64,000 nucleotides of DNA. Origin: Allorhizobium pseudoryzae. GTDB taxonomy: Bacteria > Pseudomonadota > Alphaproteobacteria > Rhizobiales > Rhizobiaceae. The stretch spans positions 992,001 to 1,056,000 of the forward strand of contig NZ_CP049241.1 of assembly GCF_011046245.1 (NCBI RefSeq), given 5' to 3'. Under the pieces are notes generated by a model. The model saw nothing but the letters and a program-made list of their open reading frames with translations, did no database searches and was not told the DNA's origin. This document shows, piece by piece, positions 52,998 through 58,229 of this stretch. The first letter of the stretch is position 1; every line of letters starts with the position of its first letter. Made by a program: the position numbers and the translations under genes.

Positions 52998-54701
52998 TTA
53001 GTCGTTGCTGCGGCCCTTCAGAGCGGCGCCCAGGATATCGCCGAGCGATGCACCCGAGTCGGACGAACCGAACTGAGCAACGGCTTCCTTCTCTTCTGCG
53101 ATCTCGAGAGCCTTGATCGACAGCATGACCTTGCGGTCCTTCTTGGAGAAGTTGACAACGCGGGCATCAACCGTCTGACCGACCGAGAAACGCTCCGGAC
53201 GCTGTTCGTCGCGATCGCGGGACAGGTCGCCGCGGCGGATGAACGAGGTGATGTCTTCGTGGTTGACGAGACGGACTTCGATGCCACCGTCGTTGACGGC
53301 GATGACTTCGCACGAAACGACAGCGTTCTTGCGCAGGTCACCGGCCTGGGCAGCTTCACCGACCGTGTCACGGCCGAGCTGCTTGATGCCGAGCGAGATA
53401 CGCTCCTTCTCGACGTCCACATCGAGAACAACAGCGCGAACGACGTCGCCCTTGTTGAATTCTTCGATGACCTGCTCGCCCGGACGGTTCCAGTCGAGAT
53501 CCGACAGGTGAACCATGCCGTCAACGTCGCCTTCGAGGCCGATGAACAGACCGAATTCAGTCTTGTTCTTGACTTCGCCTTCGACTTCCGTGCCAGCCGG
53601 ATGGCTGTAAGCGAATGCCTGCCACGGGTTTTCAAGCGTCTGCTTGAGGCCGAGCGAGATGCGGCGCTTGGACGGATCGACTTCGAGAACGACCACGTCA
53701 ACTTCCTGGCTCGTGGACAGGATCTTGCCGGGGTGAACGTTCTTCTTCGTCCAGGACATTTCGGAGATGTGGATGAGGCCTTCGATGCCCGGCTCCAGCT
53801 CAACGAATGCACCGTAATCGGTGATGTTGGTGACGGTACCGGAGATCTTCTTGCCAACCGGGTACTTGGCGGAGATGCCATCCCACGGATCCGACTCGAG
53901 CTGCTTCATGCCGAGCGAGATACGATGGGTTTCCTGGTTGATGCGGATGATCTGAACCTTGACCTGCTGGCCGATGTTCAGGATTTCCGACGGATGGTTC
54001 ACACGGCGCCATGCCATGTCGGTGACGTGCAGCAGGCCGTCGATGCCGCCGAGGTCAACGAACGCACCGTAATCGGTGATATTCTTGACGACGCCGTCAA
54101 CAACCTGGCCTTCTTCGAGGTTCTGAACGATTTCAGAACGCTGCTCGGCACGCGACTCTTCCAGAACGGTACGGCGCGATACAACGATGTTGCCGCGACG
54201 CTTGTCCATCTTGAGGATTTCGAAGGGCTGCGGGTTGTGCATCAGCGGGGTCACGTCGCGGATCGGACGGATGTCGACCTGGCTACGCGGCAGGAAGGCA
54301 ACGGCGCCGTCGAGGTCAACCGTGAAGCCGCCCTTGACCTGATTGAAGATGACACCTTCAACGCGCTCGCCAGCTTCGAACTTGGCTTCGAGCTTGATCC
54401 AGCTTTCTTCGCGGCGAGCCTTTTCGCGCGACAGAACAGCTTCGCCGAGAGCGTTTTCGATGCGCTCGACATACACTTCAACTTCGTCGCCGACCTTGAG
54501 CGAGCCGTCCTTGCCCTTGGCGCCGAATTCCTTCAGCGGTACGCGACCTTCAACCTTGAGGCCTACGTCGATGACGGCAACGTCCTTTTCGATCGCCGTG
54601 ACCGTGCCCTTGGCCACATAGCCTTCGGCAAGATCGTGAGAGGCGAAAGATTCTTCGAGGAGGGCCGCGAAATCTTCCCGCGTGGGGTTTGCTACTGACA
54701 T
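52998..54701 (-). CDS. rpsA: 30S ribosomal protein S1
   Basis: Binds mRNA to the small subunit during initiation. The 567 residues hold six S1 repeats, for example VVKNITDYGAFVDLGGIDGL, TVTNITDYGAFVELEPGIEG and NKTEFGLFIGLEGDVDG, after an N-terminal ribosome-binding part (TREDFAALLEESFASHDLAE). The frame is open to 54767. AGGAGATTTC before ATG at 54701 (MSVANPTRED) fixes the start. It lies downstream of cmk on the same strand with a 167-base gap that must contain its own promoter. Confidence 0.97.
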   Translation of the reverse strand: MSVANPTREDFAALLEESFASHDLAEGYVAKGTVTAIEKDVAVIDVGLKVEGRVPLKEFGAKGKDGSLKVGDEVEVYVERIENALGEAVLSREKARREESWIKLEAKFEAGERVEGVIFNQVKGGFTVDLDGAVAFLPRSQVDIRPIRDVTPLMHNPQPFEILKMDKRRGNIVVSRRTVLEESRAEQRSEIVQNLEEGQVVDGVVKNITDYGAFVDLGGIDGLLHVTDMAWRRVNHPSEILNIGQQVKVQIIRINQETHRISLGMKQLESDPWDGISAKYPVGKKISGTVTNITDYGAFVELEPGIEGLIHISEMSWTKKNVHPGKILSTSQEVDVVVLEVDPSKRRISLGLKQTLENPWQAFAYSHPAGTEVEGEVKNKTEFGLFIGLEGDVDGMVHLSDLDWNRPGEQVIEEFNKGDVVRAVVLDVDVEKERISLGIKQLGRDTVGEAAQAGDLRKNAVVSCEVIAVNDGGIEVRLVNHEDITSFIRRGDLSRDRDEQRPERFSVGQTVDARVVNFSKKDRKVMLSIKALEIAEEKEAVAQFGSSDSGASLGDILGAALKGRSND

Positions 54702-54868: not shown

Positions 54869-55504
54869 TCAATTCCTGTTCAAGGCCGCGTCGATAATGG
54901 TCTTCGCCGCTTGAAATGCGGCCTCTATACTCATTTCCGATGTATCAAGCAAGTGCGCATCGACCGCCGGTTTCAAGGGGCTGTCGGCCCGGCCCATATC
55001 GCGTTCGTCGCGCGTCTTCACGTCCTCGAAAATGGCTGCGAGATCGGCCGTGCCGCCATTGCCGATGATCTCGTCGTAACGCCGTCTTGCCCGCACCTCG
55101 GGCGAGGCCGTCACATAGAGCTTCACGGCGGCATCCGGGCAGACCACGGTACCGATATCGCGACCATCCAGCACAGTTCCGGGATCGCGGCGGGAAAATG
55201 CACGCTGCGCCTCCACCAGCGCCCGGCGCACCGCCGGCATCACGGCGATCTTCGAGGCGGCCTCGCCGATCTCATGGCGCGCCAGAACCGAACGATCGAG
55301 CCCGGCCAGATCGATCGCCAGTGCGGTCTTTTCCGCCACGGCCTCGTCGTCCAACGGCAGCCCCAGATCGAGCAGCGCCTTGGCCGTGGCACGATAGGTC
55401 AGGCCCGTATCGAGATGCTGGAAACCGTAGGTGTCCGCAATCGTCCGCGACAGGGTGCCCTTGCCCGCAGCGGCGGGGCCGTCGATAGCAATGATAAAGC
55501 CCAT
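54869..55504 (-). CDS. cmk: cytidylate kinase
   Basis: Phosphorylates CMP and dCMP with ATP. P-loop GPAAAGKGT at the N terminus, [12 protein letters not shown] for the nucleoside site, [15 protein letters not shown] and RARRRYDEI for the lid. It has 211 residues. ATG at 55504 ([14 protein letters not shown]) has GGGAG upstream; the longer frame reaches into non-coding sequence. It is normally the middle gene of aroA-cmk-rpsA, and here the gene before it is an AroA-like remnant. Confidence 0.96.
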
Positions 55505-55596: not shown

Positions 55597-56316
55597 TCAA
55601 ACGGCGACGAGAGCGGTGATCTCGATCAGGGACGCCGTCAGCGGTTGGCGTCCGGTGATGCTGAGCATCACCCCGCCCTGCCCAGTCTCTGCCACCGCGA
55701 CACCGGCACCGAAGCGTTGGAAGAGCCTTGCGATGCGGGGATCGCACCTGCCTTCCTGTGCGATCCCGGTCAGACCGGGTGTGTTCACCGCAGACAGAAG
55801 AATGGTGAGCACCTTCACCAAATCACCCACCTCCACCTGCCACTCTCGCGGCGGTGGCATGTTCGAGCCGCGCAGCGATACCCGCGCATGGCTCTTCGCC
55901 TCGACCTGCAGGCCGATCGGCAGGAACAGGTCCGACAGATCCGCCACGCCCTCCCCCATGAGGGTCACGGGAACATCATGCGAGGATAGAAGCCCCGTCA
56001 GCAGCGCGGCGGTGAGCGGCGCGCCCGAGAGATCGACGGGCTGGACCGGTTCCAGCAGCACGCCGGTGCCGAGGCCGGAGACGATAATGACATCGGGCGC
56101 CAGTTCAACCGTTGCGCCGAACGCCCTTGCGGCAGCGACAGCGGCCTTCACCTCCTTCGACGGATGTGCACCCGACAGCCGGCTTCTGCCCGTCGCAACC
56201 GCCATCAGCAGCAGGGCCGCGACCGCGAAGAGATCATCGACGGTCCGACTGGCGGACAGGCGCGAGGAGCCAGCCCCCGCTGCAGCTTCGTTTCCCGGCT
56301 CTGCCTGTTGCGACAT
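55597..56316 (-). CDS. AroA-like single-domain protein lacking EPSP-synthase catalytic motifs
   Basis: It occupies the position of aroA (5-enolpyruvylshikimate-3-phosphate synthase) before cmk, but is 239 residues instead of about 450. It aligns along its length with the first EPSPS domain: [53 protein letters not shown] and [15 protein letters not shown]. The catalytic blocks are gone: KSISHR reads as DDLFAVA, GNAATG as SGAPLT, SAQVKSA as VGDLVKV, and RDHTEKM as CDPRIAR. The second domain is absent. Codon use is normal and the frame is intact. AGGGG precedes ATG at 56316. It cannot be an active EPSPS. Confidence 0.75.
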
Positions 56317-56533
56317 CGATCCCCTGACCACCACCTGATCCGCGCCTGCGCTGCCCCGACGTGCACCGCCTTCGCGGTCATCGACGGGAAACTCTGGAAT
56401 TGCAAGGCTTTCCCGCCCAAGTTTGTCTTTGACATGCCAATCCACAAGGATTAAGGGGACCGGCTAATATTTTTGTGAGCGCCGCGCACGCGGCAACGCC
56501 GAGACAATCGGCCATTTGCACGGGGCATCTAAA

Positions 56534-56920
56534 GTGGCAAAAGCGGAACTTGGTACCAAGCGCACCGACCCGGATACGGGCAAGAAATTCTACGACCTCA
56601 ACCGCGATCCGGTTGTGTCGCCCTACACGGGCAAGTCCTGGCCGCTCTCCTTCTTCGAGGAGAACACGGCCCAGATGAAGATGGAACAGGCCGAGGAAGA
56701 GGAAGTCGCGGAAGTCGATACCGAAAACCCGGATGTTGAACTCGTCTCGCTCGAAGAGGGCGACGATGCGGCATCGGGCGACGACATTCCGGATATCGGC
56801 GATGACGACGTCGAAATCGACGGCGACGATGACGACACCTTCCTCGAGGCGGACGAAGACGATGACGATGACGATGTCACCGGCATTATCGGCGTCGGCG
56901 GCGACGAAGACGAGGTCTGA
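56534..56920 (+). CDS. FYDLN_acid family protein (TIGR02300)
   Basis: 128 residues. The conserved N terminus has AELGTKRTDPDTGKKFYDLN and DPVVSPYTGKSWP, which names the family. The C-terminal two-thirds is extremely acidic, with runs of Asp and Glu. The function is unknown, and the family is confined to alphaproteobacteria. A GTG at 56534 begins the conserved part; ATG at 56516 lacks a better site. It diverges from the aroA position, the usual rhizobial arrangement. A weak terminator (GGCCCGG/CCGGGCC, 56938-56963) follows. Confidence 0.9.
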   Translation: MAKAELGTKRTDPDTGKKFYDLNRDPVVSPYTGKSWPLSFFEENTAQMKMEQAEEEEVAEVDTENPDVELVSLEEGDDAASGDDIPDIGDDDVEIDGDDDDTFLEADEDDDDDDVTGIIGVGGDEDEV

Positions 56921-57151: not shown

Positions 57152-58229
57152 AAATTTTCTAGGCAGTAACGTACAAGACTAAGCTCTTACGAATACGCGG
57201 ATCTCCGCTCTTCCTTGTTCGCGTTTCGATCAAACACTTAGTCCCTTTTCGTTGCAAGTTAATACTCGAGCGTCACCTTCTTGCATTGCTGTCTCCCCGG
57301 GAATCTGATGATCTAAACTCAGACGCAAAGGGCGAGCCACTTCTCCCCACTATTCACAAATCGACAGCCTTGACTGCGCGCATCTTTTACTGTACGGGCA
57401 GTGCGCAAATTCTAAGCTATTGTTTTTAATGATTTTTCATGAATCTCATTGAATAAACTAAGATTTTGCGTCGGACAACCTATCCAGATTCGCTTGTCAA
57501 ACGCGAATCAATAGCTTACAAATCATCATCCTGTTAATCGCAGGATGAAAAAAGGCCCCCACCGAAATGGGAGCTTTTCTTATGCTTCGACATGGTACGT
57601 CTGGGTTACGCAACTGGTGCGTTGGAGCGCGGCCAGCGGCGGCAATGAGAGCAGACAGTCTCCCATTGGCCCAGACGGAACCTCCGGTATTGGATAACCG
57701 ATACCGGCTTGAATGCAGGGCATGAAATTCTCATACCCGCCTCCTATACTCGTATGAGAGCCAGGAGGACTCGCTCTCGCCAGCCCTTCGCCACTTTATG
57801 CGACGAAGCTTCACCATCCCCGCACACTTAGGGGTGCCGCATAAGCGTGGACCAGCAAAAACTAATCGATGAATACTAGGTTCCAGTAGAGTCGACAAGC
57901 GGCTAACAACTAAAACGCCGCACAATCCCCGTTTATTTGACCACCAGCGCGCATGGCCGCTTGAATTTCTCCTAACCGCAGCGAGGCACAAATCGCTTCA
58001 GTGGCCTTCTATGACGATTCTAGGAGGGTTCAATTTTTGTTCTTGTTGACAGCTTCAGGTCGCACCGTAAAGAGAGAAGCCGTTTAACGACGACCTGAAG
58101 TTTTTGACGGTTTAAATGCCATTACGCTATAGAGTCTGATGTCTATCGCATTGAGACTTAGTTTCCGTCCAGCGTCTTCTTCCTCTCAAGTCTAGTTGAG
58201 ATTCGGACGCGGAAGCGTTTTCGACGATG
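57152..58229. other. about 1 kb without a credible gene, AT-richer than the flanks
   Basis: Base composition falls noticeably and stop codons are frequent in all frames. Structured elements only: hairpin ATCCTG/CAGGAT (about 57527-57545), a terminator-like stem AAAGGCCCCCA/TGGGAGCTTTT (57551-57578), a palindrome CCGGTATTGG/CCGATACCGG (57684-57707), and CTTCAGGTCG/CGACCTGAAG with a T-run (58053-58102). An 86-codon frame at 57731-57991 has poor codon use. It may be a decayed insertion next to the tRNA, or hold unrecognised small RNAs. Confidence 0.65.
58053..58102 (+). terminator. long-loop inverted repeat followed by T-run
   Basis: CTTCAGGTCG (58053-58062) and CGACCTGAAG (58088-58097) are perfect 10-base complements 25 bases apart, followed by TTTTT. 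Could end a short plus-strand RNA from the gene-free region, or serve as a protein-binding palindrome. Confidence 0.4.

Follow-up and report, generated by a model that had tools for sequence, protein, structure and literature searches.

A stretch of 64,000 nucleotides (nt) of the Allorhizobium pseudoryzae genome (contig NZ_CP049241.1, positions 992,001 to 1,056,000; hereafter the window) carries, directly upstream of cmk and rpsA, an open reading frame (ORF) that corresponds to the first domain of the class II form of AroA (EPSP synthase) and for which we use the shorthand DOM1 (domain-I-only AroA ORF). Comparison of its sequence with those of 11 further copies (for a total of six in the window's genus, g1, five in genus g99, and one in genus g88) makes it likely that DOM1 is a folded, non-catalytic, stand-alone protein that is under purifying selection and has a binding or structural role. 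We propose that, with the shikimate step performed by a class I AroA from another locus, the native class II aroA of an aroA-cmk-rpsA operon would have turned redundant, that this gene would then have shed domain II along with key substrate-binding residues, and that purifying selection would have retained domain I, with its three alpha/beta repeats, as a non-catalytic protein in its own right. Pseudoenzymes as such are not new; what would be unusual here, if true, is that a two-domain metabolic enzyme of some root-associated bacteria has repeatedly been cut to one dead domain on which selection acts, at the same place in the operon in all three genera. AroA domain I belongs to a herbicide target that has been studied in depth, and would then have a non-catalytic role. 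Full-text literature searches yielded no evident account of a stand-alone dead AroA domain I protein.

Homology and genomic position of DOM1

The Pfam family EPSP_synthase (PF00275) matches the window's DOM1 above the gathering score (E 3.6e-6), with a best stretch covering positions 31-123 only, and matches all six g1 copies at E<=0.01; TIGR01356, the aroA model, matches DOM1 with E 2.5e-9, yet far under its curated cut-off. A profile built from the six g1 copies (i.e., the window's and those of five relatives) aligns with residues 18-241 of CP4 EPSP synthase (PDB 2gg4) at E 1.8e-50 and with E. coli EPSP synthase (1g6s) at E 1.7e-6, and the match of the class II AroA hidden Markov model (HMM) in the window's DOM1 stops at position 251, short of the two domains and about 450 amino acids (aa) that are the norm for the enzyme. 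The initial annotation of this locus, which had described an alignment along the whole first domain with the second domain missing, is thus borne out by the match to 2gg4; with regard to the landmark motifs it listed, the alignment of domain I stands, while one motif reads VNTPG rather than LNTPG. DOM1 combines a significant profile match with a syntenic origin, as homology within the EPSP synthase superfamily demands. Because the match to CP4 EPSP synthase coincides with the slot position, DOM1 is, on sequence grounds, derived from the native class II (CP4-type) aroA and not from a class I AroA or MurA, where the class I and class II labels rest on motif reading by eye. A scan of genome contigs with P0001 found no relative, nor did scans of viral contigs.

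DOM1 and its neighbours in and around this slot are the following:

55597..56316, minus strand: DOM1, 239 aa plus stop, derived from class II AroA (EPSP synthase) but reduced to domain I and catalytically dead
56320..56325, minus strand: possible ribosome-binding site AGGGGA, read by eye, 3 nt 5' of the DOM1 ATG
54869..55504, minus strand: cmk, (d)CMP kinase, the next downstream gene, 92 nt past the DOM1 stop
52998..54701, minus strand: rpsA, encoding ribosomal protein S1, following cmk, with its start provisionally set at MSVANPTRED
56516..56920, plus strand: gene of the TIGR02300 (FYDLN acid) family, divergent, the upstream boundary of the aroA slot

The DOM1 frame begins with ATG and runs through 239 intact codons to a stop within 56316..55597 of the minus strand, so that coordinates and neighbours agree with the intact frame in the aroA slot before cmk-rpsA that had been annotated; normal codon use, also claimed there, was examined solely as GC content by codon position (0.72/0.51/0.77). 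Window positions 57160-58100, directly 3' of a tRNA-Ala (GGC), contain few ORFs and look AT-rich, and are possibly the leftover of a tRNA-inserted element.

AroA genes elsewhere in the genome

PF00275 occurs at five places in the genome to which the window belongs, namely in DOM1, a class I AroA, and three MurA-like proteins. The initial annotation had suggested that a duplicated AroA moved elsewhere, and its new-function idea depended on the presence of a full-length aroA outside the slot. Such a gene exists at C1:299646-300833 and exceeds the curated aroA cut-off; however, it encodes a class I enzyme (L003, 418 aa, in which GSKSITNR and GNAGTATR were read directly) and is not the slot gene relocated. 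Two of the three MurA-like proteins are encoded at G000:C4:67776-68975 (L002) and C1:1556462-1557688 (L004); the gene on contig C4 adjoins regulator-like and kinase-like genes similar to those that bear MurR/RpiR and GlcNAc-kinase annotations in a database match. In five other genomes (G016, G042, G102, G126, and G208), a class I AroA-like gene coexists with class II aroA, which is the intermediate state that a displacement model needs.

Distribution of DOM1

cmk is present in all 57 congeneric genomes, each of which (the window's included) contributed its cmk-flanking DNA to the survey. The aroA slot holds a class II aroA in 20 of these genomes (a count that includes G039 despite its two-frame gene), DOM1 in six (G000, G036, G035, G033, G049, and G032), an ORF of the FMN-binding type in 17, and no ORF of >105 aa in 14. 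The class II aroA of G039 (L045) is split over two frames of 313 and 131 aa, which could reflect either an error in sequencing or a recent disruption. The ORFs of about 210-260 aa in 17/57 congeners were at first considered DOM1 candidates, and were rejected as FMN-binding type proteins; this call is based on a PF04299 scan in G007 and on reading by eye in the rest, among which the G048 frame looks broken. This FMN-binding, PaiB-like gene sits where class II aroA vanished in G007 (L077:3213-3977) and 16 other congeners, and also in G183 (L122), which belongs to another genus.

In a tree of cmk and rpsA, the six g1 species with DOM1 fall inside one clade of 12 species (ultrafast bootstrap 100), the other six species of which have an empty slot, as does a sister clade of four. 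A single origin with two subsequent losses would be compatible with this distribution, as would up to three separate origins, and a clade that holds species with and without DOM1 offers a natural experiment. All 12 species of the clade, including the six with an empty slot, encode a full-length AroA that scores above the curated cut-off. This bears on the idea that DOM1 is an accessory subunit of the replacing class I AroA, which would be consistent with the presence of a full-length class I AroA in 12/12 genomes with DOM1; however, because all six empty-slot species also have a full-length AroA, class I AroA manages without DOM1 there, and we consider this role very unlikely.

A family search covered 297 genomes from 109 genera, with roughly 150 matches listed and 51 chosen genomes followed up. 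Among the matches listed, two further genera carry DOM1, i.e., g99 (5/5 genomes) and g88 (1/6 genomes, G332); the g88 genome G352 shows only a fragment, which lies at a contig end. Because the G332 copy scores like a real class II gene, young DOM1 copies of this kind may be missed beyond the matches listed. The G332 copy is nearest (42-45% identity) to class II AroAs from within its genus and the g99 copies are nearest to one another, for which reason DOM1 probably arose independently in the three genera. An order-level sample of 150 genomes, 137 of which had a match at E<=1e-15, yielded no clear extra DOM1, where copies weaker than 1e-15 would not show; its only open frames of <400 aa besides the window's were those in G361 (204 aa) and G470 (375 aa). 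ORFs found in the slots of other class-I-only genera were rejected as unrelated, by eye and for want of an HMM match.

Loss of active-site residues and conservation of core positions

The motifs KS...R, GNAGT, KRP, SAQ, and TRDH contain residues that we take to be substrate contacts. In the window's DOM1, 11 of the 12 positions in the KS..SHR, GNAGT, KRP, SAQ, and RDH motifs differ, and the A of GNAGT is retained as A; the initial annotation, according to which all phosphoenolpyruvate (PEP) and shikimate-phosphate residues are replaced, thus holds for all but one of the positions examined. Across the 12 copies, the column of the KSxxxR arginine reads A, T, F, or L, and the second G of GNAG (class II position G116) is P in eight copies, with each of the three genera represented, a hint of parallel change. 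Fifteen columns, mostly glycine or leucine, are invariant in 12/12 copies (G83, G97, G99, G101, L103, L104, L121, G124, L125, G157, G174, P180, G205, T207, and G246, numbered after a congeneric class II AroA). An invariant core combined with lost motifs is the pattern that a fold kept without its chemistry would leave.

A ligand-sensing role, which had been put forward for this locus, is weakened because key substrate positions of domain I are replaced. That DOM1 remains a sensor for shikimate-3-phosphate or PEP appears highly improbable, given that four presumed ligand contacts (K of KS, R of KSxxxR, R of KRP, and Q of SAQ) are absent from all 12 copies, even if lone residues recur at other motif positions, which most copies have lost (the S of KS in 3/12, the S of SAQ in 5/12, and the R of TRDH in 1/12 copies). 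To judge by the titles of Stauffer 2001, as listed in the references of PMC3411725, and of PDB entry 1p88, the isolated N-terminal domain of E. coli EPSP synthase has been studied for shikimate-3-phosphate binding, which would favour such a sensor.

Probable selection on DOM1

DOM1 evolves fast. The g1 copies are mutually 26-64% identical and 25-35% identical to the class II AroAs of the genus, which (in the eight of 20 that were aligned) share 85-96% identity; the cmk genes of the same six DOM1 genomes are 80-92% identical. All 12 copies, which had been chosen as open frames, end near the domain boundary. The ratio of nonsynonymous to synonymous substitution rates (dN/dS) in five close DOM1 pairs is 0.18-0.41 across methods. 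For three of these pairs, neutral simulations (150 runs per setting, two settings per pair) gave lowest ratios of 0.48-0.63, among those that could be computed, versus observed ratios of 0.28-0.41.

These data speak to the possibility that DOM1 is a neutral class II aroA remnant that is still open by chance in GC-rich DNA. GC-rich DNA leaves other frames open too, so openness by itself is weak evidence; alternative frames of the same DNA are open in some copies, the 12 copies were selected for openness, and both copies remained open in 0-16 of 150 neutral simulations. However, no alternative frame is open in all 12 copies, dN/dS lies below every simulation in the three simulated pairs, and the turn and core positions are kept although identity of the g1 copies to class II AroA is down to 25-35%. 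Half-decayed fragments are also missing from other slots: a screen of open segments of at least 25 aa at E<0.05 turned up no aroA fragment in the slots of the 31 congeners of the FMN-type or empty class, and no aroA HMM match at E<0.05 in 45 more slots; the latter come from genomes of other genera with a class I AroA only or with no match, and the one of G250 was covered over 950 bases only. Of the marks of a pseudogene, stops and frameshifts were not found in the DOM1 copies, nor was dN/dS near 1 in the five close pairs. DOM1 shows the loss of catalytic residues under apparent purifying selection that is one of the features of a pseudoenzyme. The pattern in the relatives would thus argue against a decaying remnant, which we judge quite unlikely; the initial annotation had likewise favoured selection, a view that frameshifts or random decay in relatives would have undermined, and neither was seen.

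A second alternative is that DOM1 is translated only as a leader, through which translation or transcription is coupled into cmk-rpsA, such that an open frame is needed and the protein itself is irrelevant. DOM1 is directly upstream of cmk in 12/12 copies, and its stop overlaps the cmk start in 5/5 g99 genomes, as in most native class II genes displayed. The gap to cmk, however, spans 73-112 nt in five g1 copies, against 3 nt in the sixth (G032), and is about 456 nt long in G332, and the 14 congeners without any slot ORF of >105 aa have an intact cmk. Moreover, in two g1 pairs the synonymous rate (dS) of DOM1 is equal to or above that of cmk; as it is not below that of cmk, constraint would act on amino acids. 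A leader is thus unlikely.

Several observations nevertheless weigh against a folded protein under purifying selection. The simulations contained no insertions or deletions and assumed a kappa of 2.5. In two g1 pairs, dN/dS of DOM1 is about 3-5 times that of cmk, and constraint on DOM1 is weak for this reason. Distant pairs gave NG86 ratios of 0.35-0.82, and one of 1.0, at saturating dS, with several estimates failing; because dS is saturated, these pairs carry little information. A new motif common to all DOM1 lineages was not found by eye. AlphaFold2 models match EPSP synthase domain I with pLDDT values of 56 and 67, which are low to moderate and were obtained from a two-sequence alignment with a predictor to which EPSP synthase folds are probably known. 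Finally, DOM1 is missing in six of the 12 species of its own clade, where cmk is intact, and is dispensable in that these species do without it.

Possible function of DOM1

We infer that DOM1 is expressed and folded, and that it acts by binding something, as a scaffold or regulator. The binding partner may be Cmk or a protein that a different gene of this operon encodes, since DOM1 stays directly upstream of cmk and AroA-Cmk fusions are a curated family; this is a specific guess, and one more probably wrong than right. A broader proposition, which we regard as possible though doubtful, is that upon displacement of class II AroA by class I, domain I has repeatedly been freed in this family to become a stand-alone, non-catalytic protein whose selected function is linked to the cmk-rpsA operon, and that such a second function would already reside in the N-terminal domain of class II AroA.

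Comparison with known systems

Class II EPSP synthase (CP4 type; PDB 2gg4 and 2gg6) shares with DOM1 the slot before cmk-rpsA, a domain I that aligns end to end (18-241), and the structural glycines and prolines; by contrast, DOM1 lacks domain II and the key substrate-binding residues of domain I. Other enolpyruvyl transferases, MurA among them, belong to the superfamily of DOM1 and share its predicted fold, but match it more weakly than class II AroA does, and the three MurA-like proteins of this genome are full length and encoded elsewhere. In the bifunctional AroA-Cmk fusion (NCBIfam NF008816), AroA and Cmk sequences are likewise joined or adjacent; the fusion, according to its family name, joins a catalytic AroA to Cmk, whereas DOM1 would be a separate dead domain. 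The isolated N-terminal domains of EPSP synthase (PDB 1p88 and 3ti2) resemble DOM1 in their single-domain extent and match its predicted fold, and show that this domain can stand alone; while these are, per their titles, fragments cut from enzymes, DOM1 occurs naturally as a gene and lacks the binding residues.
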